Positions 7,128 through 11,075 of a stretch of 11,075 nucleotides of DNA are shown piece by piece. How positions within the stretch are numbered: position 1 is the stretch's first letter; every line of letters starts with the position of its first letter. The notes under the pieces were generated by a model. That model searched no databases. It worked only from the letters and a program-made list of their open reading frames with translations, and was not told where the DNA came from. Made by a program: the position numbers and the translations under genes. Source of the stretch: Betaproteobacteria bacterium (GTDB taxonomy: Bacteria; Pseudomonadota; Gammaproteobacteria; Burkholderiales; Burkholderiaceae); contig CANIMS010000029.1 of NCBI GenBank assembly GCA_947468785.1, forward strand, positions 1 through 11,075, written 5' to 3'.

Positions 7128-7592
7128 TCACTTTGGTAATGGCAAAGCAGTTTTGTAGCGTACTTGCTTTAGTGCAAAGCTAGAGCGAATTTTTTCAATT
7201 CCCGATATTGGCGTTAGCTGTTCTAAGATAAATTTTTCGAGTGCACCCATATCTGCAACAGCAACGCGGATCAGATAGTCGCTATCACCAGTCATTAAAT
7301 AACATTCCATCACTTCATCGTGCTCTGAAATCCGTTGCTCAAATTCAGCTAAGGCTTTTTTGGATTGTTCTTTTAAGCTAATAGAGATAAATACATTTAA
7401 GCCAAGTCCCAAACTCTTAGGGTCTGCGAGTGCCACGTAATTTCGAATGACGCCTTTATCTTTGAGGGCTTTAACCCGCATTAGGCAGGGCGATGGTGAT
7501 AAATGAACCCGCTTAGCAAGCTCTACATTGCTGTGGGAACTGTCATTTTGTAGTTCGTTCAATATTCTGATGTCTATCGGATCTAGCTTCAT
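7128..7592 (-). CDS. Lrp/AsnC-family transcriptional regulator
   Basis: This 154-residue protein has typical Lrp/AsnC layout. An N-terminal winged helix-turn-helix (about 3-60) begins LDPIDIRILNELQNDSSHSN, with the recognition region LSPSPCLMRVKALKDKGVI. A C-terminal RAM/ligand-binding domain (about 66-143) includes VMECYLMTGDSDYLIRVAV, the usual amino-acid-binding loop GDSDY. It would form octamers and sense an amino acid. It is divergent from the E2-E1 genes, and the intergenic region carries a perfect Lrp-consensus palindrome 25 bases before its ATG, so autoregulation and control of the dehydrogenase genes are likely. The layout recalls MdeR and BkdR of Pseudomonas, Lrp-type regulators of oxoacid-dehydrogenase genes. 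It could instead be a global Lrp. The start is supported by TAAGG five bases before the ATG. Confidence 0.93.
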   Translation of the reverse strand: MKLDPIDIRILNELQNDSSHSNVELAKRVHLSPSPCLMRVKALKDKGVIRNYVALADPKSLGLGLNVFISISLKEQSKKALAEFEQRISEHDEVMECYLMTGDSDYLIRVAVADMGALEKFILEQLTPISGIEKIRSSFALKQVRYKTALPLPK

Positions 7593-7616: not shown

Positions 7617-7631
7617 CAGCATATTATGCTG
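7617..7631. promoter_or_regulatory. Lrp-type operator, perfect 15-base palindrome
   Basis: CAGCATATTATGCTG is a perfect inverted repeat and matches every position of the E. coli Lrp consensus YAGHAWATTWTDCTR. It lies 25 bases upstream of the regulator's ATG. Its internal CATAAT (reverse strand, 7623-7628) could be the -10 of the regulator's promoter, with TTGTGT at 7647-7652 as a weak -35 (18-base spacer). Binding there would repress the regulator itself. Confidence 0.7.
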
Positions 7632-7656
7632 AATTATCAAATTTAAACACAATAAT

Positions 7657-7671
7657 TAGCATCCTATTTTG
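7657..7671. promoter_or_regulatory. Second, imperfect Lrp-type site
   Basis: TAGCATCCTATTTTG matches 12 of 15 positions of the Lrp consensus. Its centre is 40 bases from the first site, close to four helical turns, which suits cooperative wrapping by an Lrp octamer. A third half-site, CAGCAT at 7692-7697, lies closer to the E2 gene. TTGACC at 7669-7674 is -35-like, but no good -10 follows, which would fit an activated promoter. Confidence 0.45.
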
Positions 7672-7714: not shown

Positions 7715-7718
7715 GGAG
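7715..7718 (+). promoter_or_regulatory. Shine-Dalgarno GGAG deciding the E2 start
   Basis: GGAG (7715-7718) lies six bases before the GTG at 7725. It falls inside the reading frame if TTG 7710 is used, so GTG 7725 is the better start. The frame has a stop at 7653 and no ATG before either codon. Confidence 0.6.
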
Positions 7719-7724
7719 AAAGTT

Positions 7725-8723
7725 GTGGGTGCTGAGCTTGTCCTTCCCAAGATTGAGAGCGTATTGCAGATTAATGATGAGGTCCTCATAAATCAATCGG
7801 GCTTGCATTCGGATGCTTGGGCTAGCCCCTCAGCAAGAAAATTTGCTCGCCAATTTGGTGTTGATATTCATCAAGTAAGAGGGAGTGGACAAAGAGGGCG
7901 AGTTACAAAAGAAGATATTGAGCAATTTATTAAGAGCTCAATGTTGGCTAGAAAAAATTCTAGTGCTCCCATTGCTGCAGGAATTAGTTGTTTAGATTTA
8001 TTGCCTTGGCCAAAAGTCGACTTTGCAAAGTTTGGGGAAGTTGAGCGTCAAGCGCGTAGTCGTATTCAAAAAGTATCAGCTGCCAATCTTGCACGTAATT
8101 GGGTCATGATCCCAGCGGTTACTTATCATGATGATGCTGATATCACTGATCTTGAAGAGTTTCGATCCACATTAAACAAAGAGAATCAAAAAGATGACCT
8201 TAAGCTGACTTTGCTTGCCTTTTTAATAAAGGCGGTAGTTGCCGCTCTGAAGAGATATCCCACATTCAATTCTTCCCTCGATGGCGAAGAGCTCGTTTTG
8301 AAAAAGTATTTCCATATTGGTTTTGCGGTTGATACTAAAAATGGTTTGGTGGTGCCAGTGATTCGCAATGCTGATCAAAAAGGTATTCGGGAGATCGCAA
8401 AAGAAACTGCAGAATTAGCAATCTTGGCCAGGGATGGAAGACTCAAGCCAGATCAGATGCAAGGCGCCAGCTTCACCATCTCATCCTTGGGCGGTATTGG
8501 TGGCACTTACTGTGCCCCAATTGTGAATGCCCCTGAGGTAGCTATCTTGGCGGTTAACAAATCGGCAATAAAGCCAGTTTGGGACGGTTCGCAGTTTATT
8601 CCACGATTGATCTGCCCACTTTCAATGAGCGCAGATCATCGAGTCATTGATGGCGCAATCGCTACACACTTCACCACTTATCTCACTCAGTTACTGGGTG
8701 ATTTTCGTAAAGTCATGTTATGA
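7725..8723 (+). CDS. Lipoyl-domain-less E2 acyltransferase of a 2-oxoacid dehydrogenase
   Basis: Starting at GTG 7725, this is a 332-residue dihydrolipoamide acyltransferase core. Residues about 32-69 (SPSARKFARQFGVDIHQV, then GSGQRGRVTKEDIEQFI) are a peripheral subunit-binding domain, which docks E1 or E3. Residues about 92-332 are the catalytic domain, with FTISSLGGIGGTYCAPIVN (250-268) and the active-site DHRVIDG (304-310) carrying H305 and D309. It closely resembles the AceF core of beta- and gammaproteobacteria (LLPWPKVDFAKFGEVE). The N-terminal lipoyl domain, about 80 residues with a DKA lysine motif, is absent. The Lrp-type gene begins only 132 bases upstream and an in-frame stop lies at 7653, so none could be encoded here. 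The catalytic part looks intact, so this is not an obvious pseudogene. It precedes the E1 gene by 34 bases, the reverse of the usual E1-E2 order. Confidence 0.88.
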   Translation: MGAELVLPKIESVLQINDEVLINQSGLHSDAWASPSARKFARQFGVDIHQVRGSGQRGRVTKEDIEQFIKSSMLARKNSSAPIAAGISCLDLLPWPKVDFAKFGEVERQARSRIQKVSAANLARNWVMIPAVTYHDDADITDLEEFRSTLNKENQKDDLKLTLLAFLIKAVVAALKRYPTFNSSLDGEELVLKKYFHIGFAVDTKNGLVVPVIRNADQKGIREIAKETAELAILARDGRLKPDQMQGASFTISSLGGIGGTYCAPIVNAPEVAILAVNKSAIKPVWDGSQFIPRLICPLSMSADHRVIDGAIATHFTTYLTQLLGDFRKVML

Positions 8724-8757: not shown

Positions 8758-11075
8758 ATGAATGCTCCCGACATTAAAAAATACTTAAATCTTGAGCACA
8801 TTGATACTGACCCAACAGAAACTGCCGAGTGGAATGAGGCATTCATGGATTTACTGGCCTCTGGAGATAGCGGCCGCGCCAAATTTATTTTGGACAACTT
8901 AGTCAAGCTTGCTAATAAACATCAAATTAATTGGGTGCCAGATTTAGTGACTCCTTATGTCAATTCAATACCAGTGGATGAGCAGCCCCCTTTTCCAGGC
9001 GACCTTGCGATTGAAGAAAAGCTCGCTTCTTTGATGAGGTGGAATGCTTTAGCGATGGTTGCAAAAGCGAATGAAGCTTATGGAGAGTTGGGCGGACATA
9101 TCGCAAGCTATGCCAGTGCTGCTGATTTATTTGAAGTGGGGTTCAATCATTTTTTTCGGGCTAGAACCGAGAGTGGAGAGGCTAAAGATCGTGGCGATTT
9201 AGTTTTCTTTCAGCCTCATAGTGCTCCAGGGGTATATGCCAGAGCTTATTTAGAAGGAAGGCTTACTGAGAATGATCTTGCTCACTATCGGCGTGAGATT
9301 ACTGCGCCTGAGTCTGGAGCAAGGGGTTTATCAAGCTACCCACATCCTTGGTTAATGCCCGATTTTTGGCAATTTCCAACAGGCTCAATGGGGATTGGGC
9401 CAATCAGCTCGATCTATCATGCGCGCTTTATGCGTTATCTCACTGATCGCAAATTACTAGATTGCACTACTAGAAAAGTTTGGGGTGTATTTGGTGATGG
9501 CGAAATGGATGAGCCAGAAAGTATGAGCGCTTTGACATTGGCATCTAGAGAGAAGCTTGATAACTTGGTTTGGGTCGTCAATTGCAACTTGCAACGCTTA
9601 GATGGTCCAGTACGAGGTAATGGCAGAATTATTGATGAGCTCGAAAAGCTCTTTAGAGGTTCTGGCTGGAACGTTATCAAATTGGTTTGGGGTAGCGATT
9701 GGGATGGGCTCTTTGCTAGAGACACCACCGGAGCATTGGTAAAGGCCTTTGCGCAAACAGTTGATGGGCAAATGCAAACATTTGCAGCAAAAGACGGTAG
9801 CTTTAATCGTAAGAATTTCTTTGGTCAAAATGAAGAATTGGCTCATCTTGCGCAAGGCATGACAGATGAGCAAATTGATCGTCTGAAAAGAGGTGGCCAT
9901 GATCTAGTCAAAATTTATGCTGCCTATCAAGCAGCAGCCAATCACCTTGGTCAACCTACTGTGATCTTAGCCCATACCAAAAAAGGCTATGGCATGGGCC
10001 ATGCTGGTCAAGGAAAAATGACTACCCACAGCCAGAAAAAATTAGATGGCGAAGCTTTGATTGAATACCGCAATCGTTTTAATTTACCTTTGACCGATGA
10101 GCAGGCAACAAGCTTGACCTTTTTTAGGCCTGATGAAAATAGCGAAGAGTTGAAGTACTTAAAAGAGCGACGTCATCAGCTCGGCGGTCAGATGCCAAAG
10201 CGTCATTCAGATTGTGAGCAATTAAAAGTACCGGACATGCATTCATATGCAGCCTTTGCCATGAAGCCTGAAGCAAAAGAGATGTCGACCACGATGGCGT
10301 TTGTCAGGATGTTGGGAAATCTACTAAAGGATAAAGAGCTTGGTCCTAGGGTTGTACCAATTGTGGCTGATGAGGCCCGTACTTTTGGTATGGCCAATCT
10401 ATTTAAGCAAGTCGGTATTTATTCCAGTGTTGGTCAGCGCTATGAGCCAGAGGATATTGGCTCAGTACTGAGCTATCGCGAAGCATTGGATGGGCAAATT
10501 TTAGAAGAGGGTATTAGTGAGGCAGGCGCGATTGCAAGTTGGACGGCGGCAGCTACTAGTTACAGCGTACATGGAATTGCGATGCTGCCTTTCTATATCT
10601 ATTACTCAATGTTTGGGTTTCAGAGAATTGGCGATGCTATCTGGGCGGCGGCTGATCAGCGTGCTAGAGGTTTCTTATTGGGCGCGACCTCTGGCAGGAC
10701 AACATTAGGTGGTGAAGGTTTGCAGCACCAGGATGGAAGCAGTCATTTGGTGGCTGGAACTATTCCGAACTGTAAAGCATACGACCCTGCGTTTGCAGGA
10801 GAGTTGGCTGTGATCATCGATCAGGGCATGCGCGATATGTTAGTTGATCAAAAAGATTTGTTCTACTACATCACTCTCATGAATGAAAATTATCCTCAGC
10901 AAGATTTGCCTGATAACGCAGCCCAGGATGTGATTCGTGGTTGCTATAAATTAAAGACTGTAAAAGCATTGAATGGGAATACTGAGTCACATGTCAGTTT
11001 GTTGGGCTCTGGGGCGATTATGACTGAAGTGCTAAAGGCAGCAGATATGCTTGCTAATTCTGGAATCAATGTTGA
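8758..11075 (+). CDS. Homodimeric AceE-type 2-oxoacid dehydrogenase E1 (3' end outside window), possibly MdeB-like
   Basis: The 772 visible residues align along E. coli AceE (about 890), so roughly 115 are missing. E1 uses thiamine diphosphate to decarboxylate a 2-oxoacid and acylate a lipoyl arm. Seen are GGHIAS (H114), QPHSAPG (H154), the thiamine-diphosphate motif GDGEMDEPE (D247) with NCNLQRLDGP (N277) 30 residues on, the mobile-loop histidine in GKMTTHSQKK, and ILEEGISEAGA with the catalytic glutamate. All are intact. QPHSAPG replaces QGHISPG of E. coli AceE, which I associate, tentatively, with the MdeB-like paralogue branch whose Pseudomonas member acts on 2-oxobutyrate. The Lrp neighbour and odd E2 partner fit that, but pyruvate remains possible. 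AGAGGA seven bases before the ATG supports the start; the 34-base gap to E2 suggests one operon. Confidence 0.88.
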   Translation, partial: MNAPDIKKYLNLEHIDTDPTETAEWNEAFMDLLASGDSGRAKFILDNLVKLANKHQINWVPDLVTPYVNSIPVDEQPPFPGDLAIEEKLASLMRWNALAMVAKANEAYGELGGHIASYASAADLFEVGFNHFFRARTESGEAKDRGDLVFFQPHSAPGVYARAYLEGRLTENDLAHYRREITAPESGARGLSSYPHPWLMPDFWQFPTGSMGIGPISSIYHARFMRYLTDRKLLDCTTRKVWGVFGDGEMDEPESMSALTLASREKLDNLVWVVNCNLQRLDGPVRGNGRIIDELEKLFRGSGWNVIKLVWGSDWDGLFARDTTGALVKAFAQTVDGQMQTFAAKDGSFNRKNFFGQNEELAHLAQGMTDEQIDRLKRGGHDLVKIYAAYQAAANHLGQPTVILAHTKKGYGMGHAGQGKMTTHSQKKLDGEALIEYRNRFNLPLTDEQATSLTFFRPDENSEELKYLKERRHQLGGQMPKRHSDCEQLKVPDMHSYAAFAMKPEAKEMSTTMAFVRMLGNLLKDKELGPRVVPIVADEARTFGMANLFKQVGIYSSVGQRYEPEDIGSVLSYREALDGQILEEGISEAGAIASWTAAATSYSVHGIAMLPFYIYYSMFGFQRIGDAIWAAADQRARGFLLGATSGRTTLGGEGLQHQDGSSHLVAGTIPNCKAYDPAFAGELAVIIDQGMRDMLVDQKDLFYYITLMNENYPQQDLPDNAAQDVIRGCYKLKTVKALNGNTESHVSLLGSGAIMTEVLKAADMLANSGINV

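Follow-up and report, generated by a model that had tools for sequence, protein, structure and literature searches.

The lipoyl arm of E2 is usually regarded as a defining part of the 2-oxoacid dehydrogenase complexes; the locus described here raises the question of how an E2 acyltransferase that has no lipoyl domain, and that is encoded next to its own E1, can take part in acyl transfer. The window, i.e., the whole stretch of 11,075 nucleotides that was analyzed, is the entire contig C29 of a Polynucleobacter genome (257 contigs, 1.72 Mb, completeness 74.8%), the closest named relatives of which are Polynucleobacter, a group of freshwater bacteria. The features of the locus are the following:

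7128..7592, minus strand: divergent gene for an Lrp/AsnC-family regulator
7617..7631, no strand assigned: near-perfect palindrome CAGCATATTATGCTG, candidate operator
7654..7671, plus strand: conserved upstream element AATTAGCATCCTATTTTG
7715..7718, plus strand: ribosome-binding site GGAG, preceding the GTG start at 7725
7725..8723, plus strand: lipoyl-less E2 acyltransferase, 332 aa, GTG start
7725..7754, plus strand: N-terminal stub MGAELVLPKI, aligning with MAIEVVVPDI (first strand of the lost domain) of lipoyl-bearing relatives
7818..7922, plus strand: peripheral subunit-binding (E3_binding) domain, PF02817, E 1.1e-15
8037..8720, plus strand: catalytic core, 2-oxoacid_dh, PF00198, E 9.9e-80
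8634..8654, plus strand: intact DHRVIDG active-site motif
8758..11073, plus strand: MdeB-type homodimeric E1 (TIGR03186 family), running off the contig end

The initial annotation, made from the sequence alone, had described a binding domain and an intact acyltransferase core, and both were recovered, E3_binding with 58 bits against a cut-off of 23.7 and 2-oxoacid_dh with 267.7 bits, the DHRVIDG motif being complete. Pfam gave no Biotin_lipoyl match in the 332-aa protein up to an E-value of 1. The 132 bases that separate the E2 from the Lrp gene contain three in-frame stops, the nearest of which is the TAA at 7653-7655; these stops, together with a translation start common to the relatives, exclude that a lipoyl domain was overlooked upstream and bear out the earlier view that the domain is absent rather than missed. 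The E2 falls below the cut-off of TIGR01348, the model of E2p (AceF), with 448.4 versus 552.1 bits and a match limited to model positions 285-587, and below that of PRK11857 (193.4 versus 378 bits), a 308-aa E2 model that presumably covers the lipoyl-less E2s of Mollicutes. By sequence, its nearest solved relatives are the E. coli E2p chains 7b9k and 4n72, and the mean pLDDT of its predicted structure is only 41.6 (13 sequences). The locus E2 is thus an AceF-type E2 failing one defining feature of its family, the lipoyl domain. A literature search, mostly without subscription journals, retrieved no publication on this E2 and none on mdeB by name.

The adjoining E1 belongs to the AceE family. 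Four full-length relatives score above the TIGR03186 cut-off of 1408.3 (1425.0-1445.4), and the window E1, which is cut by the contig end, reaches 1313.7. MdeB of P. putida acts on 2-oxobutyrate, which, from the family, we take to be the likely substrate of this MdeB-type E1 as well.

Three states of the locus in Polynucleobacter

An initial search, covering 61 genomes of the genus, retrieved the E1 in 13, the source genome included (rows at E 0), and a wider search of 186 Polynucleobacter genomes retrieved it in 35 (E 1e-290 or better); all 35 loci were classed by inspecting the DNA adjoining E1. A lipoyl-less E2 lies beside E1 in 18 genomes (G000, G014, G028, G049, G059, G067, G072, G076, G086, G090, G111, G112, G125, G136, G159, G160, G171, and G175), the class of G028 resting on an N-terminal piece from another contig (L237). 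A lipoyl-bearing E2 is present in four (G018, G026, G134, and G153), and the other 13 have no E2 beside E1, that is, none within flanks of about 1.5 kb; in six of these 13, a whole-genome search likewise yields just two E2 matches. Twelve named loci of the same gene comprise ten lipoyl-less (L042-L050 and L053) and two lipoyl-bearing copies (L051 and L052), some genomes appearing under two handles (L043/G049, L046/G059, and L053/G175). A sequencing slip, considered initially as a trivial cause of the missing domain, is excluded, because the lipoyl-less E2 occupies this position in 18 of the 35 E1-bearing genomes.

The upstream element AATTAGCATCCTATTTTG was found, with up to two mismatches, at all 18 lipoyl-less and all four lipoyl-bearing loci, and about 100 bases before E1 in five of the 13 loci devoid of E2 (G003, G015, G025, G097, and G100); at the same threshold, it was not found in the other eight. 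Since the element precedes E1 also where there is no E2, the sequences suggest that E2 sits between a pre-existing control region and E1. The palindrome CAGCATATTATGCTG does not recur elsewhere in the window at up to two mismatches, and this candidate operator region is presumably bound by Lrp. The flanks of the module vary by species: SDR, Rieske, class II aldolase, ketopantoate-reductase-like and DRL-type oxidoreductase genes are found in G014 (L245), an IlvD/Edd dehydratase at L051, and a mandelate-racemase-type enzyme with a TctC receptor at L053. It is possible that the Lrp-E2-E1 module moves as a cassette, in the vicinity of genes for organic-acid catabolism.

Across the order, 321 of 399 genomes gave at least one match in a search for E2p; among the matches listed there were, besides the window, four short frames, none of them an intact lipoyl-less E2p. 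Those of G578 and G758 run into a contig end, while those of G638 and G773 are broken, with the lipoyl motif in an overlapping frame. In the single-contig genome G638 (L238), the aceF linker is split, with the formation of overlapping lipoyl and core frames, which may reflect either a sequencing slip or a real split.

The mdeB-type E1 (TIGR03186), belonging to the same family as the window E1 and often having an Lrp-family neighbor, is found in Burkholderiales and others, and it occurs in 118 of 299 genomes of the family sample. Unlike the window, where a lipoyl-less E2 lies upstream, 23 of the 27 loci fetched outside Polynucleobacter have no E2 in the inspected flanks (about 1.5 kb), and the remaining four have a lipoyl-bearing E2 downstream; among the loci inspected, Polynucleobacter alone has the lipoyl-less E2 upstream, and none of these 27 does. 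Lrp-family and mdeB genes are annotated without E2 on Polaromonas and Cupriavidus plasmids, and an mdeB-E2-lpdA gene set is annotated in Roseinatronobacter. One E1 relative (L207, in G311) contains one in-frame stop codon and is possibly a pseudogene. Given the 13 genomes of the genus and the 23 loci of other genera without E2 in the flanks, an E1 of this type is probably able to work with another E2. As E1 is mostly without an adjoining E2 in the loci inspected, use of the E2 or of the arm of another complex is probably the older condition, to which the lipoyl-less E2 would represent a partial return.

Possible donors of the lipoyl arm

In the source genome, aceE and aceF are located on contig C48, at the edge of which, in the expected place of lpd, there is a fragment of a lipoyl domain; C67 contains a partial odhA, sucB and lpd; gene names on both contigs were assigned by look rather than by family search. 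The second aceE-aceF-lpd set that the initial annotation had advised to look for is represented by aceE, aceF and the edge fragment on C48. The AceF of this genome has one lipoyl domain, and further matches on C81, C30 and C93 were rejected as lipoyl proteins, their motifs being of the biotin type (EVMK, EAMK, and EAMKM).

A Biotin_lipoyl scan of 14 genomes, 12 with E1 and two without, included four lipoyl-less relatives (G014, G028, G049, and G059). All four have an AceF with one or two lipoyl domains, an adjoining frame of about 600 aa with one, corresponding to Lpd (its sequence was inspected for G049 and G014), and SucB. The seven matches in G014, a single contig that is 99% complete, are two in AceF, one each in Lpd, SucB and GcvH, and two biotin-motif proteins. 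The number of lipoyl domains in AceF, one or two, does not vary in step with the domain loss in E2, and the lipoyl domain of Lpd was found also in genomes with other states of the locus. In the Lpd of the genus, e.g., L244 of G014, the lipoyl domain is N-terminal and the gene adjoins aceF. No lipoyl match occurs at the locus in the four relatives and no lipoyl motif in the 12 kb around that of G014; this finding speaks against a separate lipoyl protein encoded beyond position 11,075, one of two options put forward at the outset. An adjoining lipoyl protein is unlikely also because the lipoyl domains of G014 sit only in AceF, Lpd, SucB and GcvH.

The other option, an arm provided in trans by the housekeeping PDH, best explains the absent domain in a functional-looking E2; aceE and aceF are present in the same genome. 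We assign a probability of about 0.6 to the reading that the lipoyl-less E2-E1 pair uses the arm of the housekeeping PDH, carried by AceF or by the lipoyl domain of Lpd, possibly within a mixed E2/AceF core. The locus would thus code for an accessory 2-oxoacid dehydrogenase, with the divergent Lrp protein as its probable regulator; E1 would decarboxylate an oxoacid, probably 2-oxobutyrate to judge from its family, and load the acyl group on the AceF arm or on the N-terminal lipoyl domain of Lpd. The binding domain of the lipoyl-less E2 would tether E1 and E3, the latter presumably being the housekeeping Lpd, while transfer of the acyl group to CoA would take place in its own core. One likely form of the assembly is a core in which E2 and AceF are mixed, which is not assured because the core of the window E2 has only 71% identity with that of the AceF of its own genome.

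It is also conceivable, but in our opinion unlikely, that the arm comes from the lipoyl domain of Lpd alone, with a homomeric E2 core binding the lipoyl-bearing E3 and no involvement of AceF. A similar arrangement is found in Mycoplasma hyopneumoniae, in which the lipoyl domain of PDH sits in the E3 subunit PdhD, according to the available part of the source (PMC7873978). The Lpd frames with a lipoyl domain in all four scanned lipoyl-less relatives, and the edge fragment in the source genome, agree with this possibility; however, the lipoyl domain of Lpd has 52-58% identity with those of the lipoyl-bearing locus E2s, compared to 64-71% for AceF, and its occurrence in genomes with other locus states implies that it arrived independently of the loss.

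The part of E2 that remains is well conserved. The median dN/dS of the E2 core in 11 lipoyl-less rows is 0.070 (0.044-0.125, 55 pairs); the corresponding medians are 0.065 for lipoyl-bearing E2s (5 of 6 pairs usable), 0.046 for AceF (34 of 136 usable) and 0.026 for the E1 of the lipoyl-less clade (55 pairs), all of them rough figures with dS of about 1 or more. The active-site motif is DHRVIDG in 15 and DHRVVDG in one of the 16 lipoyl-less genomes parsed. These sequence comparisons indicate that E2 is under purifying selection and that the gene is kept for its remaining parts; together with the conserved motif, they sustain the original impression of a functional protein. Alternatively, the E2 could be a mere adaptor, devoid of acyltransferase activity, through which the MdeB-type E1 (and E3) would attach to the AceF core, a role compatible with the retained binding domain and with the 71% core identity, which makes a mixed core plausible. 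We hold this role to be improbable, as the active-site motif is retained too and the dN/dS of the core is near that of the lipoyl-bearing E2s.

At position 231 from the binding domain, corresponding to 561 in the numbering of the aligned E. coli E2p chain, a cysteine is found in 16 of 16 locus E2s versus a phenylalanine in 69 of 69 AceF-like rows; with the thresholds applied, 14 positions in total distinguish the locus E2s from the AceF-like rows. It may be speculated that the change from F to C widens the acyl pocket or relates to acyl size; the available part of a structure paper searched for this residue (PMC8421416) does not mention the position.

History of the lipoyl domain

Lipoyl-bearing E2s start with MAIEVVVPDIGDYQNIPVIEV and similar sequences, whereas lipoyl-less ones start with MGIEIAFPG or similar, followed by the binding domain; the start is MGAELVLPKIESVLQ in the window and MAIELFVPDIGKDPSEH in L053. 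The N-terminal part comprises 132-139 residues in the four copies with a lipoyl domain; the window has 33, and the other 15 parsed genomes of the lipoyl-less type have 20-29. The parsing of start codons and motifs covered 16 of the 18 lipoyl-less genomes (leaving out G028 and G111), and the same start is present in all 16, with GTG in 15, including the window, TTG in one and GGAG before each. Because the N-terminal lengths differ while the start and the first strand stay, the alignment indicates that the gene retained its translation start and first strand and that about 100-120 residues were removed in frame. The deletion junctions of L053, of the window and of the remaining copies all differ.

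Several observations argue for loss rather than gain of the domain: lipoyl-less copies retain a stub of it, the lipoyl motif is present in 64 of the 68 AceF-like loci of relatives (the other four begin less than 270 bases from a contig end), and the E1 DNA tree places the lipoyl row L018 as the sister of a group made up of the window's clade and the remaining lipoyl rows (98/94). The direction appears supported by these data, although it falls short of proof. In the same tree, which contains 41 rows, 12 of the 13 E2-free rows fall outside the E2-bearing group, within which G175 is the first branch (84/93), followed by G015, without E2, and by lipoyl-bearing G026; three lipoyl rows (98/93) and a lipoyl-less clade of 17 genomes (100/100) come thereafter. 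G015 (L019) lacks E2 though it lies inside the E2-bearing group; its branch is long, and the whole E2 gene was perhaps lost. In the E2 tree, the locus E2s form a group cleanly apart from the AceF-like rows (100/99), represented by 17 of the 68, all from Polynucleobacter, with AceF from other genera left out.

A single clade of the 18 lipoyl-less rows is rejected on E1 DNA (AU p 7.4e-7), and a single lipoyl-less clade is rejected as well in a smaller E1 tree (AU p 6.9e-5), after removal of long rows (AU p 2.1e-10) and on E1 protein (AU p 0.016). L053 falls outside also in the E2 core protein tree (96/89), yet there one lipoyl-less clade stays unrejected (p 0.082), as it does with E2 core DNA (p 0.439), the tree of which fails to resolve. 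Two separate losses are thus likely, though short of proof, on the basis of the E1 trees, one in the window's clade and a second in G175, the latter group consisting of one MAG (G175 = L053). The four lipoyl rows form one clade in the protein trees of E2 (97/84) and E1 (96/86); on this topology the argument from L018 falls, and a loss followed by a regain requires no more steps than two losses. This leaves a small chance for a different history, with the same mechanism, in which a single early loss of the domain from the locus E2 was followed by its reacquisition in the four lipoyl-bearing genomes. However, the E1 DNA tree splits the four lipoyl rows, the stub junction of L053 is unlike that of the window's clade, and the four lipoyl domains are 86-96% alike versus 64-71% to those of AceF, so that any regain must be old.

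The initial annotation had also reckoned with close relatives carrying the domain in the same gene and a copy simply truncated here; the domain is indeed found in four of the 35 genomes, but simple truncation does not hold, the loss being common to the 17-genome clade of the E1 tree and present in G175 outside it, and the remainder being under purifying selection. A decaying copy without function, to which the longer form in those four relatives might point, is extremely improbable in view of the open frame, ribosome site and start, which all of the parsed genomes (16 of the 18) retain, and of the dN/dS of about 0.07, on which a pseudogene was rejected.

Returning to the use of a housekeeping arm in trans, the starting point would have been an E1 lacking an E2 of its own, the state of most relatives inspected; a lipoyl-bearing AceF-type E2 would then have been gained between the control region and E1, and its lipoyl domain excised once in the window's clade and probably again in G175. 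We tentatively extend this into a broader scenario, which is possible but, as a whole, less likely than not: an accessory dehydrogenase, at first reliant on AceF, gained its own E2 and, by probably dropping the arm twice, became an obligate guest in the housekeeping PDH, with a mixed AceF/E2 core, two types of E1, a pair of acyltransferase sites, of which one may be adapted to larger acyl groups, and one shared set of lipoyl arms.

Comparison with known systems

Within one genus, the same operon either lacks E2 or encodes it in a full or an armless form, a natural series suited to asking when an arm in cis is needed, whether complexes share arms and how hybrids like PDH/OdhA begin; an automatic label of ordinary acetyltransferase would mask the dependence of this E2 on another operon. 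The locus E2 has the binding domain and core in common with the AceF (E2p) of the same genomes, and it differs by the absent lipoyl domain and by the C versus F residue.

By analogy, OdhA and a Mycoplasma PDH may be taken as precedents for the proposed arrangement. In OdhA/KGD of Actinobacteria, the E2 acyltransferase, part of a PDH/ODH supercomplex, relies on the lipoyl groups that AceF carries, as described in the available parts of PMC10415282 and PMC7568260. OdhA, the precedent invoked initially, is a fair functional analogue, its E2 part lacking a lipoyl domain and its armless acyltransferase being served by the arms of another complex, as would be the case at the window locus if the arm donor is the one proposed here. 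The architecture differs: OdhA is an E1-E2 fusion acting on 2-oxoglutarate, while the window locus has separate E1 and E2 genes, and its E2, an AceF-type protein, has a subunit-binding domain. The PdhC of M. hyopneumoniae is not known to have a lipoyl domain, and the Mycoplasma complex is the only known PDH of that organism. The likeness to the PdhC/PdhD pair lies in the lipoyl-bearing E3 of the four scanned lipoyl-less relatives, of which the source genome has only an edge fragment; unlike in Mycoplasma, the window genome has a normal AceF alongside, and the locus E1 is homodimeric.
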